Positions 3,964 through 36,218 of a stretch of DNA of 51,296 bases are shown piece by piece (within the stretch, counting starts at the first letter, position 1; each line of letters opens with the position of its first letter). Made by a program: the position numbers and the translations under genes. The notes below the pieces were generated by a model that saw only the letters and a program-made list of their open reading frames with translations, had not been told where the DNA came from and ran no database searches. Origin of the DNA: Deltaproteobacteria bacterium (GTDB lineage: Bacteria > Desulfobacterota > Desulfarculia > Adiutricales > Adiutricaceae); NCBI GenBank assembly GCA_031288415.1, contig JAITRL010000345.1:1-51296 (forward strand), in the 5' to 3' direction.

Positions 3964-5946
3964 CTACGGGGCTGACCGGACGGCAACGGCGGGGCGGCCG
4001 TTGGCCGAGACGGAGAGCCGCAGGGCTTCCAGAAAGCCGTAGGCCGCGCCGTCGGCCCCCTCGCCGGCGCGCGGGCCGGAGCCGTCCAGGAGCCCGTATT
4101 CCTGAATGACGGAGGAGGGGAACCCCGGCGCCGGGTTCCAGGCGAGGGCGAGGCGGCCGGGGTTACCCAGGAAGGCCTCGACCTCCGCCTCCAGGGCCGG
4201 GATGTTCAGGATCCTCTCCCGGCTCAGCGATCCCATGGCCTCGCGGGCGGCCTCCAGGAGGGCTTCCTCGGGCGGCGCGCCGTTCAAGAGATCGCGCGAG
4301 ATGACGGGGTATAGCCGCCCGGCCGCCCCGCGGTCGGATACGGCGAAACCGCCCTCGCCCAGTTCCGAGGCCAGAAGCGCCATCACCGCAGGGTACGCGC
4401 CCTGAATCACGACGGACAGGGCCGGGAGCCGCGCCCCCTTCTGGGTGAAGTCGACATCCAGCGAGTTCTCCACTGCGGCGTTCAGCGCGATCCCGGTCAA
4501 GGATCCCGGAGGGCCGCCTTCCTGGGTGAGCGTGAACGAGCCTTCCGGGGCTTCCCCCAGGGCGGCCACGAGGAGGCGGCCCTGGGGGGTGTCCCGGACG
4601 TCCCAGGCGCCGGAGACGAGCGCGGCGCGGGCGCCCTGGACGTTCAGGCTCTTTACCGGGGCGCCGTCAGGGCCGGCGCGGGAGGAGAGCGTCGCCTTGG
4701 GGACGTAGAAGAGCTCGCTTCCGGCGGTCTCCGCCGTGAGGTGTTCCAGCTCCAGGCTCTCCATGGACTCGAAGAGCGCGGCGAGGAAGGACAGGGGGCG
4801 GGAGCCGCCCGACAGGGCGCCTCCCGGGGCCAGGAGCCTGTTGAGGTCAAGGCCGCCTGCGGACAGGCCGGCCAGCGCGGCCGCGGCGCCCGCTCCCGAG
4901 TCGAAGGTGAAGCCGGTGACGGTGACGCTCCCGGCCACCCAGCCCGCGAAGTTCTCCAGCGTGAAGGTGTCCAGTCCCGTTTCCGCTCCCCCGTTCCTGA
5001 CCCGCAGGTCGGCGACTCTCAGGCTCTTGAGGCTGAAGCCGCCCGTGCCCGGGTCTTCGGGCGAGGGCGGCCTGAAGCCGGAGACGTAAAGGGTCCCGAA
5101 GGAGGCCTCGGGAAGGCGGTCCAGGGAGCCGGAAGGAACGAAGCGCGCTCCCCTGGCCGTGACCTGGCCCTCCCCCGCAAGGACGTACAGAGGCTCGGCC
5201 TTGCCCAGGAGGGCCTTCAGGACCGCGGCAGGCCTCAGGCGCCTGCCCGACACCGACTCGACCGAGAGCGCGGGGCCGTCCCCGCCTTTCGGCCAGAGCG
5301 AGAGGCCCTCCACCGTGAAGCCGGTGAGGAGCGGGCTCACCCGCGCCTTGCGGGCCTCGATCCTGGCGAAGTCGGCATCATCCCCGAAGTCCTGGTTGAC
5401 GGCCATGCTCAGAAGCACTGTGGGAACGATGAACAGCGCCAGGAGGGCCGCGGCCAGGAGCGCGCCCAGGGCGATCAGCGCGGCCCGCGCGGGGCGCGCG
5501 GGCCTCTCGTCGGCAGGGTCCGGGCCAGGGCCGGAGGATCCGGTTCCGGCCGGGAGCCCTTCGGGGCCTGCGGCTTTCGCGGCCCCTTCTGAGCCTGGGG
5601 CCGCTTCGGATGCTTCCGGGGCCGCGGTAGCCGGGGACGCTTCGGAACTTGCGGGGCTTCCAGGCGACGCGTATCCTTCCGATCCCGCTGAGCCCGCGGG
5701 CTTGTCAGGGTTTTCAGGACCTGCGGCAGCCGCGGGCTTGTCCGAGCTTTCAGGACCCGCGGCCGCCGCGGGCTCTTCAGATATTTCAGGACCTGCGGCA
5801 GCCTGAAATTCATCAGATCTTTCAGGGCCTGCATGACCCGCAGGTCCTGCGGGCCCTTCCGGCCCTGAGGGCGCCCGCGCCATTTCCGGGCCGCCCTGGC
5901 CGGAAGGCTCCGAAGCGGGCGTATCGTCCTTGGTAAGATTTGTCAA
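3964..5946 (-). CDS. Single-pass membrane protein with Pro/Ala/Gly-rich N-terminal repeats and a large C-terminal domain of unknown function
   Basis: 660 aa. Low-complexity AAGPEISEEPAAAAGPESSDKPAAAAGPENPDKP repeats, one TM segment AALIALGALLAAALLALFIVPTVLLSMAV, then a globular domain. Confidence 0.75.
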   Translation of the reverse strand: MTNLTKDDTPASEPSGQGGPEMARAPSGPEGPAGPAGHAGPERSDEFQAAAGPEISEEPAAAAGPESSDKPAAAAGPENPDKPAGSAGSEGYASPGSPASSEASPATAAPEASEAAPGSEGAAKAAGPEGLPAGTGSSGPGPDPADERPARPARAALIALGALLAAALLALFIVPTVLLSMAVNQDFGDDADFARIEARKARVSPLLTGFTVEGLSLWPKGGDGPALSVESVSGRRLRPAAVLKALLGKAEPLYVLAGEGQVTARGARFVPSGSLDRLPEASFGTLYVSGFRPPSPEDPGTGGFSLKSLRVADLRVRNGGAETGLDTFTLENFAGWVAGSVTVTGFTFDSGAGAAAALAGLSAGGLDLNRLLAPGGALSGGSRPLSFLAALFESMESLELEHLTAETAGSELFYVPKATLSSRAGPDGAPVKSLNVQGARAALVSGAWDVRDTPQGRLLVAALGEAPEGSFTLTQEGGPPGSLTGIALNAAVENSLDVDFTQKGARLPALSVVIQGAYPAVMALLASELGEGGFAVSDRGAAGRLYPVISRDLLNGAPPEEALLEAAREAMGSLSRERILNIPALEAEVEAFLGNPGRLALAWNPAPGFPSSVIQEYGLLDGSGPRAGEGADGAAYGFLEALRLSVSANGRPAVAVRSAP

Positions 5947-6010
5947 GCTCCTTCGGCTCCTTCCATGCTTAACGAGGGACGCCCCCCGCGGCGCGCGGCC
6001 GCGACGGGGG

Positions 6011-8080
6011 TCAGTCCGTGACGAGGCTCCCGCGGAAGTGATCGAGATCCTCCTCGATCTCCCAGAGGTGCTTCCCTATGCCTTCGAGTATGAAGATCGG
6101 CGATCTGGGGTCGCGCAGGATGGCGGTTCCCACCTGCACGGCGGAGGCTCCCGCCAGGATGAACTCCAGGGCATCCTCCGCGGTGAAGATCCCGCCCATG
6201 CCGATGACCGGGATGCCCACGGCGCGGGCGCACAGCCATACCTGGCGCAGGGCCAGCGGCTTGATGGGCGGACCTGACAGGCCGCCCGTCACGTTCCTGA
6301 GCTTGGAGCGCCGGGCGTGGAGGTCTATGGCCATGGCGGGCAGGCTGTTTATGAGCGAGATGGCGGAGGCGCCCGCCTCCTCGCACTTCCTGGCGAGGGC
6401 GGCCACGTCAGAGACCAGCGGCGGGAGCTTGACCACCACGGGCTTGCCCCTGGCCGCGTCCACGGTCTCGCGGGTGATGCGCGCCGCGAGCTCCGGGTCC
6501 GAGCCGAAGGAGAGGCCGCCGCCCCCCTGGAGGTTGGGGCAGCTCACGTTGAGCTCCAGGAAGTCCGCTTCGGAGGCGGCCAGCCTGGAAGCGAGGAAGA
6601 CGTAGTCTTCCGGGCTTCTGCCCAGGATGTTCGCCCCCACGGTCGCGCCCGCGGCCTTGAGGGCCGGGAGGGCCTCGGCCAGGTAGCGCTCGAGGCCCAT
6701 GTTCTCCAGGCCTATGGAGTTCAGGAGCCCTCCCCCGCCCTCGGCCGCCCGGGGCTGCGGGTTGCCGGGCCACGGATCGGGGGAGATCCCTTTGGTGATT
6801 ACCGCGCCCAGGCGCTCGGGCGGGCAGAAGTCCTTGAGCTCGAGCCCGTAGCCGAAGGTGCCGGAGGCCGCGATGACGGGGTTCTTGAGGGCGAGGGGAC
6901 CCAGCTTCACGGTCATGTCCGGGGTGAAGAAGGCCTTGGCCGGCCGCCCGGGGTCGGAGACGTGCACGATGGCCGAGCCGGGGAACACCGGCCCCTCGAC
7001 GCAGACCCGGGCGCGCTTGCCCGTCCTGAGGGGCACCCCGCAGGACAGGCACACCCCGAGCCCGCAGGCCATGAAGGCCTCGGTGGAAACGAAGGCGCTC
7101 ACCCCGAGGGAGCGGGCGATCTCCTCGACGGCCCTCAGCATGCCGGGCGGCCCGCACGCGAAGACCGGAAGCTCCCTCTCCTTGAGGCACTCCAGGAGGC
7201 CGTCGGTCACGGAGCCGCGGCGGCCGTAGCCCGTGCCGTCCTCCGTGTAGGCCACCGTCTGGGGGAAGACCGAGCGCAGGTAGCCCTGGTCCACCTGGCT
7301 GGCCCCCGTCCTCTCGCCGTAAATCAGCACGGCGTCGGGGTTCCAGCGGGCGGCCTGCCCCATGGGGGCGAGGCCCGCCCCCCCGGCCACGAGATAGGCC
7401 GGCCCGTCGCGCAGCTCCGGGGCGGCCTCAGGAAGCCCGGTGCCCATGGGGCCCGTGACCTTGACGTAGGATCCCCTGGGGAGATCCTGCAGGAAATTTG
7501 TGCCCGCCCCCACTGTACGGATAAGGAACTCGACCCTCTCCCGGTCCATGAGGTGGATGGAAAAGGGCCTGTCCAGGAACGGGAAGCCGGGGGAGGGCCC
7601 GGGCTGGTAGGGGGGGTCGGCGCCGCCGGAGGGGTCCGTCGGGGTGCCGGAGGGAGCGCGGCCCGGGGGAGCCTCGCCTGGCGGCGGGCCGCAAGAGGAG
7701 TCCGGCGAGGCGCCGCCGGGGCCGGGGCTCCGGAAGGCCTCGCCCGGCGCCGGGTCCGCGGAGGCGGCAAGGGAGGCGGAAGCGGGGCGGATGGCGCAGG
7801 GAGCCCCAGGGAGGGGGAGGCTTTCCGGCGGCACGGGGGCCGGGGCGGCGATGAGTTCCGGGGATGCCGTGACGGGGGAATGGAAGTCGCGGCCGCTGTC
7901 CCGCAGGCGGAAACCAGGCAGGCCATCCGCAGGGAAAGGCCCGCAGGGGGAGACTTTGGCGAACTGCCCGGGGTCGGCCAGCGGCATCTTGGGGGGGCGG
8001 GCGAGCCGCAGGGCGAAGGTGTCGCGGCTGAGGGGCTCCACCTCGATGACCTTCGCGAGGGTGATCACGGGCTTAGGCAC
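6011..8080 (-). CDS. pyrKD: Fused dihydroorotate dehydrogenase electron-transfer subunit (PyrK) and class 1B catalytic subunit (PyrD)
   Basis: GTG start. N-terminal FAD/NAD and 2Fe-2S part (RPFSIHL, CGPPGMLRAVEEI, CGLGVCLSCGVPL...C) continues in one frame into PyrD (NPVIAASGTFGYG, ELNVSCPN, VIGMGGIFTAEDALEFILAGASAVQVGTA). Confidence 0.92.
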   Translation of the reverse strand: MPKPVITLAKVIEVEPLSRDTFALRLARPPKMPLADPGQFAKVSPCGPFPADGLPGFRLRDSGRDFHSPVTASPELIAAPAPVPPESLPLPGAPCAIRPASASLAASADPAPGEAFRSPGPGGASPDSSCGPPPGEAPPGRAPSGTPTDPSGGADPPYQPGPSPGFPFLDRPFSIHLMDRERVEFLIRTVGAGTNFLQDLPRGSYVKVTGPMGTGLPEAAPELRDGPAYLVAGGAGLAPMGQAARWNPDAVLIYGERTGASQVDQGYLRSVFPQTVAYTEDGTGYGRRGSVTDGLLECLKERELPVFACGPPGMLRAVEEIARSLGVSAFVSTEAFMACGLGVCLSCGVPLRTGKRARVCVEGPVFPGSAIVHVSDPGRPAKAFFTPDMTVKLGPLALKNPVIAASGTFGYGLELKDFCPPERLGAVITKGISPDPWPGNPQPRAAEGGGGLLNSIGLENMGLERYLAEALPALKAAGATVGANILGRSPEDYVFLASRLAASEADFLELNVSCPNLQGGGGLSFGSDPELAARITRETVDAARGKPVVVKLPPLVSDVAALARKCEEAGASAISLINSLPAMAIDLHARRSKLRNVTGGLSGPPIKPLALRQVWLCARAVGIPVIGMGGIFTAEDALEFILAGASAVQVGTAILRDPRSPIFILEGIGKHLWEIEEDLDHFRGSLVTD

Positions 8081-27510: not shown

Positions 27511-27832
27511 CGCCAGCCGCCGGCCCCGCGCCCAGGCGGCGCGCCTCTCCCTGTCCCGGCCGCCGCCCGGCTCCAGGCCCTGGCTTTGGAGCCGCTCATG
27601 AAGCCCCGCGCGGGAGCCGCGGCCGCCTCAGGTTCTTTCCCCCCCTTATCGACCCCCGCCTTTAACGCCAGGCCCTTTCATTGCCGCCGGAGCCTTCCCG
27701 GGAAGAGGCTCCCCCCGCCGCATTTCCTTGGGCGGGCCGCCGTTCACTTTCCCCTTCAAGGCCTTGAGCGGCGCCCTGTGCCAAGGCTTCAAGCCATGCG
27801 CCGGGCGCCGCGCAGGAGCCGGAAACCGCTTC

Positions 27833-29344
27833 ATGGTTGACACGAAAAGAGAGGGCGACCCCGGGCTCACGCCGCGCGCGCCCGAGAGGCGAGGGGAGGC
27901 GGACCGGGAATTCCGCCGCCTGGAGGGGGACAAAGAGGCCCTTCTGCGCGCCGTACGGCCCCTCCTGCACGTGGCCGCGGTGGCCCTGGCCAGGGAGCGG
28001 CGGGAAGGGGAGGATCCGCCCTACGGGACGGGCGAGCTTTCCTGCGAGGTGGAGGAGTCCGTCAGGGCCATCAGGCGCGGCGAGCCCGACCCGGAAGCCC
28101 TGGCCGGGCTTTCGGAACGTCTCGGGAGCCATTTCCGCGTGAAGCCCGATGCGCGCCCAGGGCGCGGCAGGGGGGAGGCCGCCCGCCCGTCTGCGCCGCC
28201 CCTGCGGGAGGAGGGCGCCGCCCCCCCCGCCTCGGCCTATTTCGACATCGGGCCTTTCGCCAAGTTCCTGGAGCTCGCGGGCGAGCTGCGGGGCGGGCGC
28301 TACCTCGATCAGGTCAGGGTCCTGCGCGCGGCGGTGTCGGCCGGGGAAGGCCTTGACGGCTTCGCGGCCACGCTCTCGGCCTTCCTCCTGAAGCTGGCGG
28401 GCGAGCTGAGCTCGGAGAGGCGGGACATAGCGGCCAGGCTGTCGACCATCATCCGCACCCTCGTGAACCTGGAAAACGAGTTCCGGAGCTTTCTGGAGAA
28501 GTCCATCACCTACCTGGACGAGAACGAGGCCTCCTTCATCGGCGGGGTGAGCCAGAGGGTGGAGAGCATCCAGGAGCGCCTCGCCGAGGCCAAGGACAAC
28601 GACGTCAACGGGCTCATCAGCCTCATCGCCGAAGAGATGGAGCTCATCTCGTCCGCGATCCGCCGGAAGACCGAGGACGACGAGTCCAGGCTGGCCATGC
28701 TCCGGGACGAGAAGGTTGTCCTGGAGTCGAGCCTGGACACGGTGCGCCGGGACTACGACTCCTTCGTCCAGCAGAGCAAGCGCATGCTCAGGGAGATCGA
28801 GGAGATGCGCGCGATAGCCCTCCGGGACGGCCTGACCAAGGTCTTCAACCGCCGGGCGTACGACGAGCAGCTGCTCCTGACCCTCCTGAACTTCAAGACC
28901 GGCAAGCTCGCCGCCTTCTCCCTGGTGATCTTCGACATCGACCATTTCCGCGACGTCAACAACCGCTACGGCCACCAGGCGGGGGACAGGATCCTGGTGC
29001 ACATGGCGGGTTCAGTCACCGCGGCGGTCAGGTCCGACGACTTCGTGTTCCGCTACGGCGGGGACGAGTTCGTGATCCTCCTGCCCGGAGCCTCGCTTTC
29101 CGACGCCTGCATGGTGGCCGAGAAGATCCGCCGCTCGGTGGACAACGTGGAGTTCGTCATCGGCAAGGGCGGGACCGAGTCCCTGCGGGTCACCATCAGC
29201 ATGGGCGTGGCCGAGGCTCGCCCCGGCGACACGCCCGGCTCCATCCTCGCCCGCGCCGACAAGGCGCTGTACGCCTCCAAGAGGGCCGGCCGGAACCGCG
29301 TGACGGCCGCGGACGACGAGTTCCAGGGGCAGGGCACGGCCTGA
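27833..29344 (+). CDS. GGDEF diguanylate cyclase with N-terminal helical sensor region
   Basis: RDGLTKVFNRRAYDEQ; RYGGDEFVILLPG; RSDD at the RxxD I-site position five residues before GGDEF; MGVAEARPGDTPGSILARADKALYASKRAGRNRV. Confidence 0.93.
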   Translation: MVDTKREGDPGLTPRAPERRGEADREFRRLEGDKEALLRAVRPLLHVAAVALARERREGEDPPYGTGELSCEVEESVRAIRRGEPDPEALAGLSERLGSHFRVKPDARPGRGRGEAARPSAPPLREEGAAPPASAYFDIGPFAKFLELAGELRGGRYLDQVRVLRAAVSAGEGLDGFAATLSAFLLKLAGELSSERRDIAARLSTIIRTLVNLENEFRSFLEKSITYLDENEASFIGGVSQRVESIQERLAEAKDNDVNGLISLIAEEMELISSAIRRKTEDDESRLAMLRDEKVVLESSLDTVRRDYDSFVQQSKRMLREIEEMRAIALRDGLTKVFNRRAYDEQLLLTLLNFKTGKLAAFSLVIFDIDHFRDVNNRYGHQAGDRILVHMAGSVTAAVRSDDFVFRYGGDEFVILLPGASLSDACMVAEKIRRSVDNVEFVIGKGGTESLRVTISMGVAEARPGDTPGSILARADKALYASKRAGRNRVTAADDEFQGQGTA

Positions 29345-29537: not shown

Positions 29538-31235
29538 TCAGGGCGCCGGAGTTCCGCCGTCCGGATCTTCCGGCGGGCATGCGGCTCCCTCCTTAGGGCC
29601 CGCGATCTCCCCGCGGCCCTTCCATGCGGCGATCGCCCTTGTCTCTTCGGATACGGCTATGCCTAAAAGGATCGGATCCGGGTAAGGGCCGGCGTAATTC
29701 CTCTTGAGTATCTGGTTCAGGGCCTCGTCCGCCGCCCGCTCCCCTGTTTCGCTTCCGCCGAAGACCTTCAGTTCCAGGATCCAGGCGCGCCGGCCCCGTC
29801 TGACGACGATGTCGGCCCTTCCCAGGTTCCCGTGGACCTCGGGCAAGGCGTCGGCGCCGATCCCGTACAGGTACGACAGCAAGTTCGAGCGGCACGGCCG
29901 TTCGCCGAGCCTGGCGCGGGGTTGCGGCCCTGCCGGCTTCCCGCCCCCGGCCGGGTCATGATCATCGCAGGCGATGCGGGCCAGGAGACGGTCAAGCTCC
30001 GCGATCACCTCGGCCGCGCAGGCTTTGTCCAAAGCCTCGAGAAAGCCGCGCCTGGATTTCTCGTATTCGGCGGAGTCGCCGAACAGGTTCGCCATCAGCA
30101 GCTTGGACATGGACTCGTGCACTTCCTCGTTGGGATAATCCAGCGTGAACCTGTCAGCCGAATCGCCGGGCCTCAGGCTTAAGTAGCCAGCCTGGTAAAG
30201 GCAGCTCCAGGGCGGGGCCGTGTCGGGCTCGCCGGGGTTTTCGGCGGAATTCCTGTCGACGGGGAACCCGCGGAACTCCTCGACGGTCAGCCTGCGATTT
30301 TTCAGGTACTCCGCCAGGTATGAGGGGGTCCCGGAAGAGAACCAGTAATTCGTGAATATTCCGCCGAACTCCGAAAAGAACTGCAGGGTCGAATAAGGGT
30401 TGTACACCTTTGTCACGCCGTCGAAGCAGAAGCCGTCGTAGTACGCCCGGAGCTTTTCCAAAAAGGCCTCTTCGCTCATGCCCAGGGTTCCGGCCGTCTC
30501 CCGTATGTGCGGGCCGAACCGGCGCTTAAGCTCGTCATGCGTGAAGCCCAGGAAGGACCCGAACCCGGGCTTGACTGAGATGTCCGTGAGATGGTTGAAC
30601 GACGAGAAGACGCCCATGCGCGAGAATTTGCTGATGCCGGTGACGAAAAGGAAAGAGATGCGCTTGTAGGAGTTTTTCAGCTGCGTGTAGTATCCGCGCA
30701 GTATCCTGCGCGCCTTTTCGGCCTCTTCCGGGCTGTCGAGGAAATCCAAGAGCGGCCTGTCGTACTCGTCGACGAGCACCGCGGCCGGGCGCCCGTGTTT
30801 TCGGGAGCATTCCGAGACAAGACTTTGCAGGATCTCCCCGGCAGGGTAGTCCTGAGGAACCTCGACCTCCAGGCCAGCTGCCGCCGCGAGGGTCATGCGC
30901 CTCAGGGAGCCGACGAGCTCTTCAGGCCCCATATCCGTGGCGGCTTTGCTCATGTCCAGCCGGATGACCGGGCGCGGGGCGAAGCGCGCCTCGCCGAGCC
31001 TGCTTTCGATCGCCAGCCCCGCGAACAGCTCCCTGTCGCCGGAAAACACCGCTTCGATGGTGTCCACCGTCAGCGTCTTGCCGAAGCGCCTCGGGCGGGA
31101 AAGAAACCATACGTTGGTCGGGCTTGCGATCAGATCGGCGATACGGCCCGTCTTGTCCACGTAAACCCAGCCGTTTACGATGATTCTCTCGAAGCTCTGC
31201 TCGCCGACGGCTACGCCTTGAAGGGGTCCCGTCAT
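29538..31235 (-). CDS. AAA-ATPase-like / PD-(D/E)XK nuclease family protein (DUF1703 type)
   Basis: ERIIVNGWVYVDKTGRIADLI...NVWFLSRPRRFGKTLTVDTIEAVF (P-loop); AAVLVDEYDRPLLDFL; GNLGRADIVVRRGRRAWILELKVFG (GxxD...ExK nuclease core). Confidence 0.92.
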   Translation of the reverse strand: MTGPLQGVAVGEQSFERIIVNGWVYVDKTGRIADLIASPTNVWFLSRPRRFGKTLTVDTIEAVFSGDRELFAGLAIESRLGEARFAPRPVIRLDMSKAATDMGPEELVGSLRRMTLAAAAGLEVEVPQDYPAGEILQSLVSECSRKHGRPAAVLVDEYDRPLLDFLDSPEEAEKARRILRGYYTQLKNSYKRISFLFVTGISKFSRMGVFSSFNHLTDISVKPGFGSFLGFTHDELKRRFGPHIRETAGTLGMSEEAFLEKLRAYYDGFCFDGVTKVYNPYSTLQFFSEFGGIFTNYWFSSGTPSYLAEYLKNRRLTVEEFRGFPVDRNSAENPGEPDTAPPWSCLYQAGYLSLRPGDSADRFTLDYPNEEVHESMSKLLMANLFGDSAEYEKSRRGFLEALDKACAAEVIAELDRLLARIACDDHDPAGGGKPAGPQPRARLGERPCRSNLLSYLYGIGADALPEVHGNLGRADIVVRRGRRAWILELKVFGGSETGERAADEALNQILKRNYAGPYPDPILLGIAVSEETRAIAAWKGRGEIAGPKEGAACPPEDPDGGTPAP

Positions 31236-31392: not shown

Positions 31393-32163
31393 CTAGCGGT
31401 CCCGGCCGTCCTTTCCCTCGCGGCGGTCCCGGCGGGTCTGGGTCTTCCAGTCGGGGGAGTCGCTGAAGCGGCCCTTCTTCTTCCCGCGGAGGGCCTGACC
31501 CCGCGGGTCGGGCAACGGGAAGCCCAGGGCCGCCATGGGCGTCTCGGGTGCCTTGGCCGCGGGCTTTTTTGGCTCCTGCTCCTCGAGGGGCCTCACCGGG
31601 GGCCCCGCGAGGAACTCCGCGGGGATCTCGTCCGCGAGCCACAGGGTTTCCGCGAAAGGCGAAAAGATCACGCCCTTGTCCCGCGCCCTGGCGGCGAAGA
31701 CCTTGACGGCCACCGGGTCCGGGCAGAACCTTTTCGCGACCTTGAGGGCCTGCTCCCTGTCAGCGAAGAGCGGCAGGCGGGTTTCCCGCGGCCTTCTGGG
31801 CCTCAGGCCGTTCTCCCAGGCGAAACGCCAGCCCTGGGGCTTCAGGGCGCACCAGAGCTCCTTGGGGAGGGCCAGATCCGGCGGAAGCGGCGGCGGGCCG
31901 CTCTGGAGGGCGGGCTTGAGGCGGAACTGCCCCCCCTCGGCCTCGAAGGGCGAGGAGCCGCCGGGCTGGTTGACCAGTTCCATTATCCGGGTCTCGTTCA
32001 CGGACCGGTAGCCGTCCTCGTCGCGCAGGGCGGCGACGAGCTCCTTGAGGGGCACGTAGCCGCCGTCCCCCGGGACCAGGCCGTACTCGTGCGGGGCCGT
32101 GTCCAGAGCGTAACGGATAAGTTTCTCCAGGGCGGAGCGGCCCTGGCTTGTCTTGCTGGGCAT
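31393..32163 (-). CDS. Divergent RNA 2'-phosphotransferase (KptA/Tpt1)-like protein, apparently degenerate catalytic residues
   Basis: Start re-assigned to MPSKTSQGRSALEKLIRYALDTAPHEYGLVPGDGGYVPLKELVAAL; C-terminal part NGLRPRRPRETRLPLFADREQALKVAKRF...GVIFSPFAETLWLADEIPAEFL follows the Tpt1/KptA layout. Assigned from motif memory only. Confidence 0.6.
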   Translation of the reverse strand: MPSKTSQGRSALEKLIRYALDTAPHEYGLVPGDGGYVPLKELVAALRDEDGYRSVNETRIMELVNQPGGSSPFEAEGGQFRLKPALQSGPPPLPPDLALPKELWCALKPQGWRFAWENGLRPRRPRETRLPLFADREQALKVAKRFCPDPVAVKVFAARARDKGVIFSPFAETLWLADEIPAEFLAGPPVRPLEEQEPKKPAAKAPETPMAALGFPLPDPRGQALRGKKKGRFSDSPDWKTQTRRDRREGKDGRDR

Positions 32164-33137
32164 GGCGGGAAAACTCCTGAGGCGCCTCGCGGGCCGCGGC
32201 GCTCCTCCCTTCCGCGCCGCTTCTCCGGCTCGCGCCCTCCGGGCCTTCCGCAGGGGCAGGCCTGCCTGGCGTAGCCGCGCCTTTAAGCCGGGCCGCAGGC
32301 AGGGGGGCCGGAAGGGCCGAAAACCCCAGGTTCCCGGATAAAGGGCCTTCGGCCCTGAGGCATCCTCGGCCGCTTCCGGCGGGAGAGCCTTGCCGAAAAG
32401 GGGCTGGTCAAGAGAGGGCGGAAGAGCGCGCCGGACATCGCTTGGACTTGTCCTGGCCTGTCCGCCTGAGTGAGGATGCGGGTTCGGCCTTCGGGGGGAA
32501 GCGGACCTCGGGAGGCGAGTCCCCGCGCGGGCGGCCTCCGCAGGCACGGCGGAAACCGGCAGGAAGCCGGCCTGGCGATGCGGCCATTTTAACATCAGTC
32601 CCGCGGCCGGGCCAGGATTTTCGCGGCTCGGGCTCTCGGTTTCCTGACGGGGGGGGGCGGCGCCCGTTCGGGTCTTTCAGAGAAACGGCCGTCTTTCCTT
32701 AAACAGTAAGGCCTGCGGTCATATTCGCATTCAGGCCGCACGGCCTTCCGGCGGCCTGCCGGGCGGCAAGGCGCCCCGGGGAGCATGGCCCGGAGCGCCC
32801 ATGCCGCGAAGACGCGAAGTTCCGGGGAGCGGCGGGGGCGCTTCCGCAGGGATTTTCGAGGGGCCGCGATCCCCGCAAGCGGCGGCGCCGCTTCGGCCCC
32901 TCCCGGCCTTCCTTTAGGCATGGCTCGGCGCCGCGCGGAGGGCGGCCTGAACTTTTGCGGGAACGGCGGCAGGGATTCCGGAGAGGGGGGAGCCGGGGAG
33001 GGCCTGTCAGCCGGCTTGAAGGGCCAGAGGACGGCGAGCCGTAAGCGCCGGCCCTGGGCGCCTTGGCGCCCTCGCCCGGCCCCAGGGCTCATCGCGCACA
33101 CTTTGCCTTGCCCCGGACCCCTTTCCGTCTTAGGCCC

Positions 33138-33200
33138 TGCCGCGCGCTTTCCCGCTTCATGGGGCCATGCCGCGCGCTTTTCCGCTTCATGGGGCCATGC
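33138..33200. repeat. Two 30-bp direct repeats in a long intergenic region
   Basis: tgccgcgcgctttcccgcttcatggggcca / tgccgcgcgcttttccgcttcatggggcca. Confidence 0.85.
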
Positions 33201-33702
33201 CCTTGGGCTTTCCCGCGGCCTTGCCCCGGCCCCCTGCGGCCGGGGCTTCGCCGCCTCTGCCCGTAGCCTCATGAAGACCGGCTGGCCGAGGGGGCCGCAT
33301 GAAGCCTCATTGCCCGCCGGGAGGGGCCTTCCGTCTCCAAAGCGCCGCTCCCGCCCGCCTGCCCGCAGGGCGGGCGGGGCTTGCCGAAGGCCGCGGCGCG
33401 GCGGGCGGGTTTCCGGTCGCCCCGTCAATGACTCCGTCCTCCTGCCGCAGCCTTTCGGGCCTTCCCGGTCCGCCGGAAAGGCGCGCACGGCGATTCATGG
33501 GCCGGTCGCGCGACGTTTGCGGCTGTTCTCGCCGGCGCGCCTCGGCGAAAGTCCGGCCGGCCGGGCTTGAGCGGTCCTTGCCGCGGCGGCGGCTTTTCCG
33601 CGAGGGGGCCTCAAGCGGGAGGCCGCAAGGGGCGGGTGAGAGGGAAGGCGGACCGGCAGCCGGAATAAGCGGCTTTCTTTTCCTGCGTTACCCCTCAATG
33701 TT

Positions 33703-33731
33703 TTGACAAAGTATAACTTTTGCGCTAGAAA
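33703..33731 (+). promoter_or_regulatory. Sigma-70-like promoter candidate for the 2-oxoacid oxidoreductase operon
   Basis: TTGACA - 17 nt - TAGAAA in an AT-rich island about 450 nt upstream of 34183. Confidence 0.5.
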
Positions 33732-34182
33732 TTGGTGGAGGCGCCCGCCCGGGGGCCCCGCGCAATTGCAGCAGCCGCTGTTTTCCGTTAAGATCCGCTT
33801 AAGGCGTCTCAGGACCGCCCCGGGGAACCCGGCGAAGTTTGGGGACAGGGCGAAAAGGAGCCCAAGCGGGTCAAGCGGTTTTGAGCCGTACGGCAATCAG
33901 GCGGCCAAACCCTTCCCGTTCAGCCCGGCCGGGCCGCTGTCCCGGATTCTGACGTTTTTCGCGCCCGGCCCAGGTGGCAGGGGCGGCCCTCCCGGGGCCC
34001 CCCGCCGGGCGGGGAGGCCCGCCGGGCCGTCTCCCGCCGGGAGCCCGCCGGACCTGCGGCCGACCGCCCGAGCACCCGCCCCCCCCCCCGCCTGAGGGCC
34101 GGGGCCCCCCGGCAAACCCCGCCGGGGCCGCCGGCCCTCTTGAAGGGGGCCCCGCAAACACGAAAGACCAGGAGAACCATTC

Positions 34183-34737
34183 ATGATCGAAATCAGGTTC
34201 CACGGCCGCGGAGGGCAGGGCGCCGTCACCTCCGCGGAGCTAATGGCCCAGACGGCGATAGCGAGGGGCCGCTACGCGCAGGCCTTCCCGAGCTTCGGGC
34301 CGGAGAGGCGCGGCGCCCCTGTGACCGCCTTCCTGCGGATCTCCGACGCGCCGATCCGGGTGCGGGAGAAGGTATACAGCCCCGACGTGGTGGTGGTCCT
34401 GGACCCCACGGTCATGAGCGTCACCCGCGTGGACTCAGGGCTCAAGCCCGACGGGTGGCTCCTGGTCAACACCCACAAGAGCCCCGCCGACGTGAAGCGG
34501 GAGTTCGGCTACTCCCAGAAGGTGGTGACGCTGGATGCCATGGGCATCGCCCTCGAGATACTCAAGGTCCCCATCACCAACACGGTGATGCTGGGGGTAT
34601 TCGCCAAGGTCCTGGGGGAGGCCACCCCGGAGGACGTGAAGGGGCCTTTCGTCAGCCGCTTCGGCGAGGCCCTCGCCGCCAAGAACCAGGCCGCTTTCGA
34701 GAAGGCCTACGCCGAGACCCGGACGGAGGTGCAGTGA
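34183..34737 (+). CDS. porC: 2-oxoacid:ferredoxin oxidoreductase gamma subunit
   Basis: [47 protein letters not shown]. Confidence 0.92.
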
Positions 34738-34738
34738 C

Positions 34739-35038
34739 ATGGCCAAGGAGATCGACGCCCTCATGAAGGTCCGGGACCTTCCCGCGGGCTTCACGGCCGA
34801 GCCGGGGAGCACCCTGGCCTTCAAGACCGGGGACTGGCGCAGCATGCGCCCCAAGCTGGACCGCGAGAAGTGCATCTACTGCGGGTTCTGTTACATCTAC
34901 TGCCCTGACGGGGTTTACCAGGACATGGGAAAGGACGAGAAGTGGTACAAGCCGGACTTCGACTACTGCAAGGGTTGCGGGGTCTGCGCCCACGAGTGCC
35001 CCAAGGACTGCATCGAGATGGTGCTGGAGGAGGTCTGA
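34739..35038 (+). CDS. porD: 2-oxoacid:ferredoxin oxidoreductase delta subunit (2[4Fe-4S] ferredoxin)
   Basis: CIYCGFCYIYCP and CKGCGVCAHECP cluster motifs, between gamma and alpha. Confidence 0.93.
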   Translation: MAKEIDALMKVRDLPAGFTAEPGSTLAFKTGDWRSMRPKLDREKCIYCGFCYIYCPDGVYQDMGKDEKWYKPDFDYCKGCGVCAHECPKDCIEMVLEEV

Positions 35039-35042
35039 AGCC

Positions 35043-36218
35043 ATGGCAGGCAAACCCATAGGACTGGAAGTCTCCCTGGCGGTGGCCGAGGCGGTGAGGC
35101 TCTGCGACGCCGACGTCGTGGCGGCCTACCCCATCACCCCCCAGACCCACATAGTCGAGCATCTCTCGGAGCTTGTGGCCGACGGCAAACTCGACGCGGC
35201 GTACATCCCCGTCGAGTCCGAGCAGTCGGCCATGAGCTCCTGCATCGGGAGCGCGGCCGCCGGCGCGAGGACGTTCACGGCCACGAGCTCCCAGGGCCTG
35301 GCCCTCATGAACGAGATGCTCTACATCGCGCCGGTCCTGCGGACCCCCGTAGTGATGGCCATCGTCAACCGCGCGCTTTCCGCCCCCATCAACATCTGGA
35401 ACGACCACTCCGACATCATGAGCGTAAGGGACGCGGGCTGGGTGGCCGTCTTCGCCGAGAACGGCCAGGAGTCCCTGGATCTCACCGTCATGGCCTTCCG
35501 CATCGCGGAGGACCCCAGGGTGTCGCTCCCGGTGAGCGTGAACATCGACGGCTTCACCCTCTCCCACTTCATCGAGCCCGTGGTCCTGCCCGAGCCCGGG
35601 GAGGTCGCGGGGTACCTGCCCCCCTTCAGGCCGCTGGTGAAGCTGGACATAGCGAAACCCGTCTCCATCGGCCTGCTGGGGACCCCCGAGAGCTACACCG
35701 AGGCGCGCAAGGCCACCGACGACGTGCTGCTCGCCTCCAAGGCCGTGGTGTCCGAGGCCTTCGCGGACTTCAGGAAGCATTTCGGCCGCGAGTACAATCT
35801 CGTCGAGACCTACCTGACCGAGGACGCCGAAACTATCCTGGTCACCATGGGGTCCATCTCCGAGACCGCCATGACCGCGGTGGACGAGATGCGCGCGGAG
35901 GGCGTCAAGGTCGGCGTCGTGCGTATCCGCCTCTGGCGCCCCTTCCCGGTCGAGGAGTTCAAGGCGGCGATCCGCCCCGCCAAGAACCTTGCCGTCATCG
36001 ACCGCCACATGGTCCTGGGAGTGCCCGACGGGCCCGTGGCCCTGGAAGTCAAGTCGCTCCTGTACGCTGACCCTGTCCGCCCCGCGATATCCAATTACGT
36101 CCTGGGCCTGGGCGGCCGCGACGTGACCCGGGACGATTTCAAGCACATCACAAAGAGGGCCCAGGAACCGGAAGCGCCGGGCCGGCCCCGTTTCGAGCTG
36201 GTGGGGGTATGGGAATGA
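35043..36218 (+). CDS. porA: 2-oxoacid:ferredoxin oxidoreductase alpha subunit (probably pyruvate)
   Basis: GLEVSLAVAEAVRLCDADVVAAYPITPQTHIVEHLSEL; ESEQSAMSSCIGSAAAGARTFTATSSQGLALMNEML. Confidence 0.93.
   Translation: MAGKPIGLEVSLAVAEAVRLCDADVVAAYPITPQTHIVEHLSELVADGKLDAAYIPVESEQSAMSSCIGSAAAGARTFTATSSQGLALMNEMLYIAPVLRTPVVMAIVNRALSAPINIWNDHSDIMSVRDAGWVAVFAENGQESLDLTVMAFRIAEDPRVSLPVSVNIDGFTLSHFIEPVVLPEPGEVAGYLPPFRPLVKLDIAKPVSIGLLGTPESYTEARKATDDVLLASKAVVSEAFADFRKHFGREYNLVETYLTEDAETILVTMGSISETAMTAVDEMRAEGVKVGVVRIRLWRPFPVEEFKAAIRPAKNLAVIDRHMVLGVPDGPVALEVKSLLYADPVRPAISNYVLGLGGRDVTRDDFKHITKRAQEPEAPGRPRFELVGVWE

Follow-up and report, generated by a model that had tools for sequence, protein, structure and literature searches.

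Why would a bacterium keep, under purifying selection, a protein built like an RNA 2′-phosphotransferase from which the catalytic residues have gone? The question is raised by a gene on the minus strand (31393..32163) of a 51,296-nucleotide contig from a Deltaproteobacteria bacterium, the whole of which is referred to here as the window. To our knowledge RNA 2′-phosphate is not known in most bacteria, and for this reason the role of KptA in bacteria has long been puzzling. Tpt1/KptA has been described as catalytically active, with an unclear substrate in bacteria (PMC6333775), and as an eraser of tRNA 2′-phosphate (PMC9095486). An inactive, tailed KptA family was not found described in the open-access papers searched, which is no proof of absence.

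A diverged KptA/Tpt1

The reading frame bears out the preliminary description of a 256-residue protein starting at 32163: on the minus strand the gene opens with ATG at 32163, closes with TAG at 31395-31393, and carries an AGGAG about 10 nt 5′ of its start. Its G+C contents at the three codon positions (0.70/0.51/0.91) mark a coding frame of the kind usual in a high-GC genome. The roughly 2 kb that separate it from an oxidoreductase operon (32164-34180) contain long mechanical ORFs on both strands; the two compared with Pfam had no match, Rfam returned no match anywhere in the window, and the interval is probably non-coding or unrecognised.

The protein is a real, diverged KptA/Tpt1. Among proteins of solved structure it resembles Clostridium thermocellum (Cth) Tpt1, matched over residues 10-185 at 5.9e-13 (phmmer against PDB sequences), and the NCBIfam PRK00819 RNA 2′-phosphotransferase models match it at 1.4e-11, its 44.3 bits falling short of the curated equivalog cut-off of 231. 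Pfam yields nothing significant, so that PF01885 misses this particular protein; among 26 diverse family members, PF01885 matches 23 (best 5.9e-39) and PRK00819 all 26 (best 2.1e-57). A plasmid search with the protein as query brought up one remote KptA only. The order of KptA/Tpt1 elements had initially been recognized in the C-terminal half; that homology lies far above chance, and its reach is wider than first proposed, since the similarity spans both lobes.

Structure prediction, named beforehand as a test that could overturn the assignment, agrees. A full-length AF2 run left the C lobe unfolded; a model of residues 1-192, without the tail, did fold (pLDDT 79.8, pTM 0.74, from an alignment of seven sequences). 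Its top 21 Foldseek matches in the PDB are all Tpt1/KptA, at E-values of 4e-11 to 2e-4, followed by La-motif and ART-fold proteins at non-significant values. Over the whole chain the TM-scores against Tpt1 reach no more than about 0.45-0.5, and the rmsd is large; the cause may be that the model orients its lobes differently, and its lobe packing is not to be trusted. The two predicted lobes are an N-terminal winged-helix "RNA lobe" (residues 10-86, 31906..32136, minus strand), confidently folded and retaining the Cth Lys11 equivalent as K14, and a C-terminal ART-fold "NAD lobe" (residues 100-185, 31609..31866, minus strand), recognized by phmmer, AF2 and Foldseek alike.

An emptied active site

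In C. thermocellum Tpt1 the essential residues are Arg18, His19, Arg68 and Arg121; His101-Gly102-Thr103 sit at the adenosine ribose, the pyrophosphate is caged by Arg121, Arg139 and Arg140, and Lys11 lies near an RNA phosphate (PMC6333775). Sequence alignments place D21-T22 (32098..32103, minus strand, as are all positions in this paragraph) where the Arg18-His19 of the LRH motif should be, P72 (31948..31950) at the Arg68 of K-x-R-F/Y, and C105-A106-L107 (31843..31851) at the NAD-binding HGT. The strand R-x-(H/Y)-V-H-L-S reads R126-ETRLPLF-133 (31765..31788). The catalytic signatures have thus changed from LRH to LDT, from the RF arginine to P, from HGT to CAL and from HVH to RLP, as the preliminary description had read them. 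The fourth tetrad column is R in one alignment and E in another, an ambiguity that arises because a two-residue insertion places arginines beside it. A search for an intact tetrad at other positions of the protein found none. What does survive is the phosphate-cage arginine, R145 (31729..31731), the equivalent of Cth Arg139.

This loss is the rule across the family. When 166 copies were extracted and aligned, all four tetrad residues were found in 8, three in 1 and two or fewer in 157, the consistent loss for which a survey of homologues had been suggested. Together with the match to the Tpt1/KptA fold, it makes it very probable, on the strength of the sequences, that the window protein and its degenerate relatives are pseudoenzymes, one of the two options first put forward. 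The annotation "RNA 2′-phosphotransferase" is then probably wrong for most copies in the phylum Desulfobacterota.

Retention across the phylum

The family is widespread. Exactly one match was found in each of 135 of the 396 well-assembled genomes drawn from the phylum, and a second draw, weighted toward relatives, agreed with this (146 of 396). A homologue is encoded in 70 of 119 genomes related to that of the window; every PF01885 match in the 119 coincides with this gene, so PF01885 detects no separate canonical KptA in them. Such a distribution bears on the possibility that these genes are functionless remnants in decay, for which the disappearance of catalytic residues from 157 of 166 copies might speak. 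Against this, the frames are single-copy and open at about 240-260 residues throughout the phylum, core and tail are conserved, and pairwise dN/dS is 0.26-0.54 among sequences of the window's genus and between them and a second genus in the same family, synonymous distances being near saturation in the longer pairs. Decay is therefore extremely improbable and already largely refuted.

The conservation that remains is unevenly distributed. Within the degenerate copies, and among columns that are invariant in active enzymes, those contacting ligand have a median of 1.73 bits versus 3.35 for the others (Mann-Whitney p = 0.01); with K11, G115 and R139 set aside, a choice made after seeing the data, p is 6e-4. 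The exceptions to this drift of the pocket are Arg139, kept in 141 of 158 degenerate members, Lys11, a column where 155 of 158 have K or R, and Gly115. Both R139 and K11, like W239 and K240 of the tail, stand at 3.3-3.9 bits, and either of the first two may be conserved on structural grounds.

These numbers weigh on the other option originally raised, an ART-fold enzyme whose old site would support new chemistry. Retention of the fold and purifying selection on the gene are what it would lead one to expect. However, the columns that replace His82, Arg68 and His101 carry just 0.4-1.0 bits in degenerate copies, which argues against a rebuilt active site. A new set of conserved polar residues filling the old pocket was sought across the family alignment and not found; the clear newly conserved polar positions, K40, E49 and those of the tail, make no such set. 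With pocket columns drifting freely, new chemistry is very unlikely, and a weak, unusual activity of the window protein is possible.

The same columns bear on a different proposal, a nucleotide sensor in which the ART lobe, though emptied, would use its Arg139/Arg140 cage to hold a small phosphate-bearing molecule (NAD, ADP-ribose, CoA or another nucleotide) and would pass the signal on by way of winged helix or tail. The persistence of Arg139, and of Arg140 in 83 of the 158 degenerate members, is in keeping with it, as is the behavior of R137A in RslTpt1, the equivalent of Arg139, which cost activity only at low NAD and so marks a binding residue (PMC6333775). Yet the adenosine-gripping residues have gone: the HGT, Ser110, Gln117 and Gln119 positions vary, H101 and the YGH stretch hold 0.4-1.2 bits, and within the window's own family Phe or some other residue replaces Arg140. 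Nucleotide sensing is accordingly doubtful. What the retained residues do share is an association with ligand: Lys11 lies near an RNA phosphate and the Arg139 equivalent matters most at low NAD, so that the remnant resembles binding rather than chemistry.

A basic tail older than the loss

The most distinctive family feature lies beyond the canonical fold. A basic C-terminal tail had been noted before, and it proves to be real and conserved: residues 186-256 (31396..31608, minus strand) form a family-specific extension, basic at its end, that canonical KptA lacks. Canonical KptA ends shortly beyond its final strand: after the Cth 179 position, ten untailed KptA have a median of 4 residues versus 71 in degenerate members, and the median net charge is 0 versus +10. 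The layout is a GPP junction, a Pro/Lys-rich stretch, often PGSF, and then W-K..RK.RR. Its best conserved motif, W239-K240 (31444..31449, minus strand), is found in 139 and 148 of 158 degenerate members at the respective columns and as a pair in 137 of 158. Searched with a tail profile, the window's genome (83% complete) gave no second significant match. Kinship of the tail with ribosomal protein L39e was considered and not used, its sole PDB match being non-significant (E 0.07).

Seven of the eight tetrad-intact copies (L046, L058, L151, L065, L068, L149 and L157) also bear the tail, W-K being missing from it in L068, L149 and L157. The eighth, L177 (genome G235), is a tailless canonical KptA that groups with the canonical enzymes; its genome has no other match to the family profile, and a replacement or a horizontal gain is possible there.

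Trees were built without active-site columns, so that residue loss itself could not shape them. Canonical and tailed proteins split with support of 100/99, the canonical enzymes lying outside; the tailed intact copies are basal on short branches, and the degenerate copies form one group that needs a single change on both the quick tree (121 rows) and the careful one (58 rows). The single-loss branch is only modestly supported (56/7; 63% of bootstrap trees), since one sequence, L063, sits near the intact copies, and two losses are possible. The order of events follows from the existence of tailed copies with an intact tetrad: gain of the tail preceded an early loss of catalysis, which occurred either once or twice. 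By orthology, W-K tail and tetrad loss, the window protein falls within what we define here as the tailed KptA pseudoenzyme clade.

The gene neighborhood

The surroundings were set aside as a functional clue, as they consist of ordinary metabolic neighbors that differ between families. In the window, the next gene downstream on the same strand (29538-31235, minus) encodes a predicted AAA-ATPase/PD-(D/E)XK protein (PF09820 4.9e-47, PF08011), beyond which lies a GGDEF diguanylate cyclase (27728-29344, plus; PF00990 5.9e-41). On the other side, divergent subunits of a 2-oxoacid:ferredoxin oxidoreductase (gamma, ferredoxin-like, alpha) occupy 34183-36218 (plus), and this opposite-strand upstream block turns up again near the KptA-like gene elsewhere in the window's family. 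A defense link was rejected, PADLOC giving no match. Elsewhere, L046 (7975-9532) has its tailed intact KptA flanked on one side by a small protein that Pfam does not match and on the other by a DUF1844 protein, an order repeated in L058, and both have panB-panC-panD upstream (panC identified by Pfam, panB and panD recognized from their sequences). The neighbor in L068 is a glycine-cleavage P protein, and those in L055 are an OTCase-type carbamoyltransferase and an amidohydrolase/dihydroorotase. In L065 a gene for a DSHCT-domain DEAD-box helicase (5183-7258) lies directly downstream of the tailed, tetrad-intact KptA, possibly as an RNA-processing pair.

That last arrangement is relevant to the idea of a protein-protein adaptor, in which tail and scaffold would dock, for example, the ribosome, RNA polymerase or a helicase and the KptA fold would do without direct recognition of RNA. 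The tail does show the clearest family-specific conservation, and the helicase is indeed the next gene in L065. No partner gene, however, was found conserved across families when neighborhoods were compared, and the adaptor reading is rather unlikely.

A proposed non-catalytic role

We favor, at a probability of roughly 0.55, reuse of the pseudoenzyme as a non-catalytic RNA-binding protein, RNA being the ligand we infer. An active KptA/Tpt1 of the Deltaproteobacteria/Desulfobacterota would first have gained the basic C-terminal tail and then, early, have lost its NAD and 2′-phosphate chemistry once or twice, after which an ancient pseudoenzyme family would have been retained vertically. The remnant would be a La-like winged helix and an emptied ART lobe as scaffold, ending in the W-K..RK.RR tail; it would bind RNA through the winged-helix lobe, the phosphate-contacting Lys11/Arg139 and the tail, and may act in the cell as an RNA chaperone, protector or adaptor. 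That the basic tail fits nucleic-acid binding, as was suggested at the outset, is supported by its conservation, which falls short of proof, and the tail could serve another acidic partner instead. A bolder combination, in which an ancient, phylum-wide ART-fold pseudoenzyme would sense a nucleotide with what is left of its phosphate cage and regulate RNA by means of winged helix and tail, is unlikely; if true, it would be a new non-catalytic RNA regulator derived from an RNA-repair enzyme.

Much of the phylum has kept this protein long after its chemistry would have gone, and the relatives that branch at the base are tailed and apparently active. This natural series separates what KptA does by catalysis from a second role that needs none, and both roles can be tested by setting a tailed active copy beside an inactive one that also has the tail.

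Comparison with known systems

The N lobe recalls the winged-helix RNA-binding domains of La/LARP proteins, a resemblance already noted for Tpt1 (PMC6333775) and echoed here by weak Foldseek matches to the LARP1 La-motif (E 0.5-1.2); the likeness is one of fold only, sequence similarity being non-significant. With KptA/Tpt1 (PF01885, PRK00819, C. thermocellum Tpt1 6E3A/6EDE), the window protein has in common the two-lobe architecture, core length, order of secondary elements, many structural motifs and the phosphate-cage Arg139, at about 25% identity; it differs in having lost the Arg-His-Arg-Arg tetrad, HGT and HVH, and in carrying about 70 further C-terminal residues that form a conserved basic tail. 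The seven tailed intact KptA, from the same phylum, belong to the same orthologous family and have the basic tail and GPP junction; unlike the window protein, they preserve the tetrad and the HVH region in full and the HGT motif almost completely (as HGT or HAT), sit on short branches and are probably still active. A catalytically inactive ART fold within an RNA-binding protein is also known from PARP13, which is eukaryotic, multi-domain and of a different ART clade. The KptA-like pseudoenzyme would resemble PARP13 in its working at most, the two being related by fold only.
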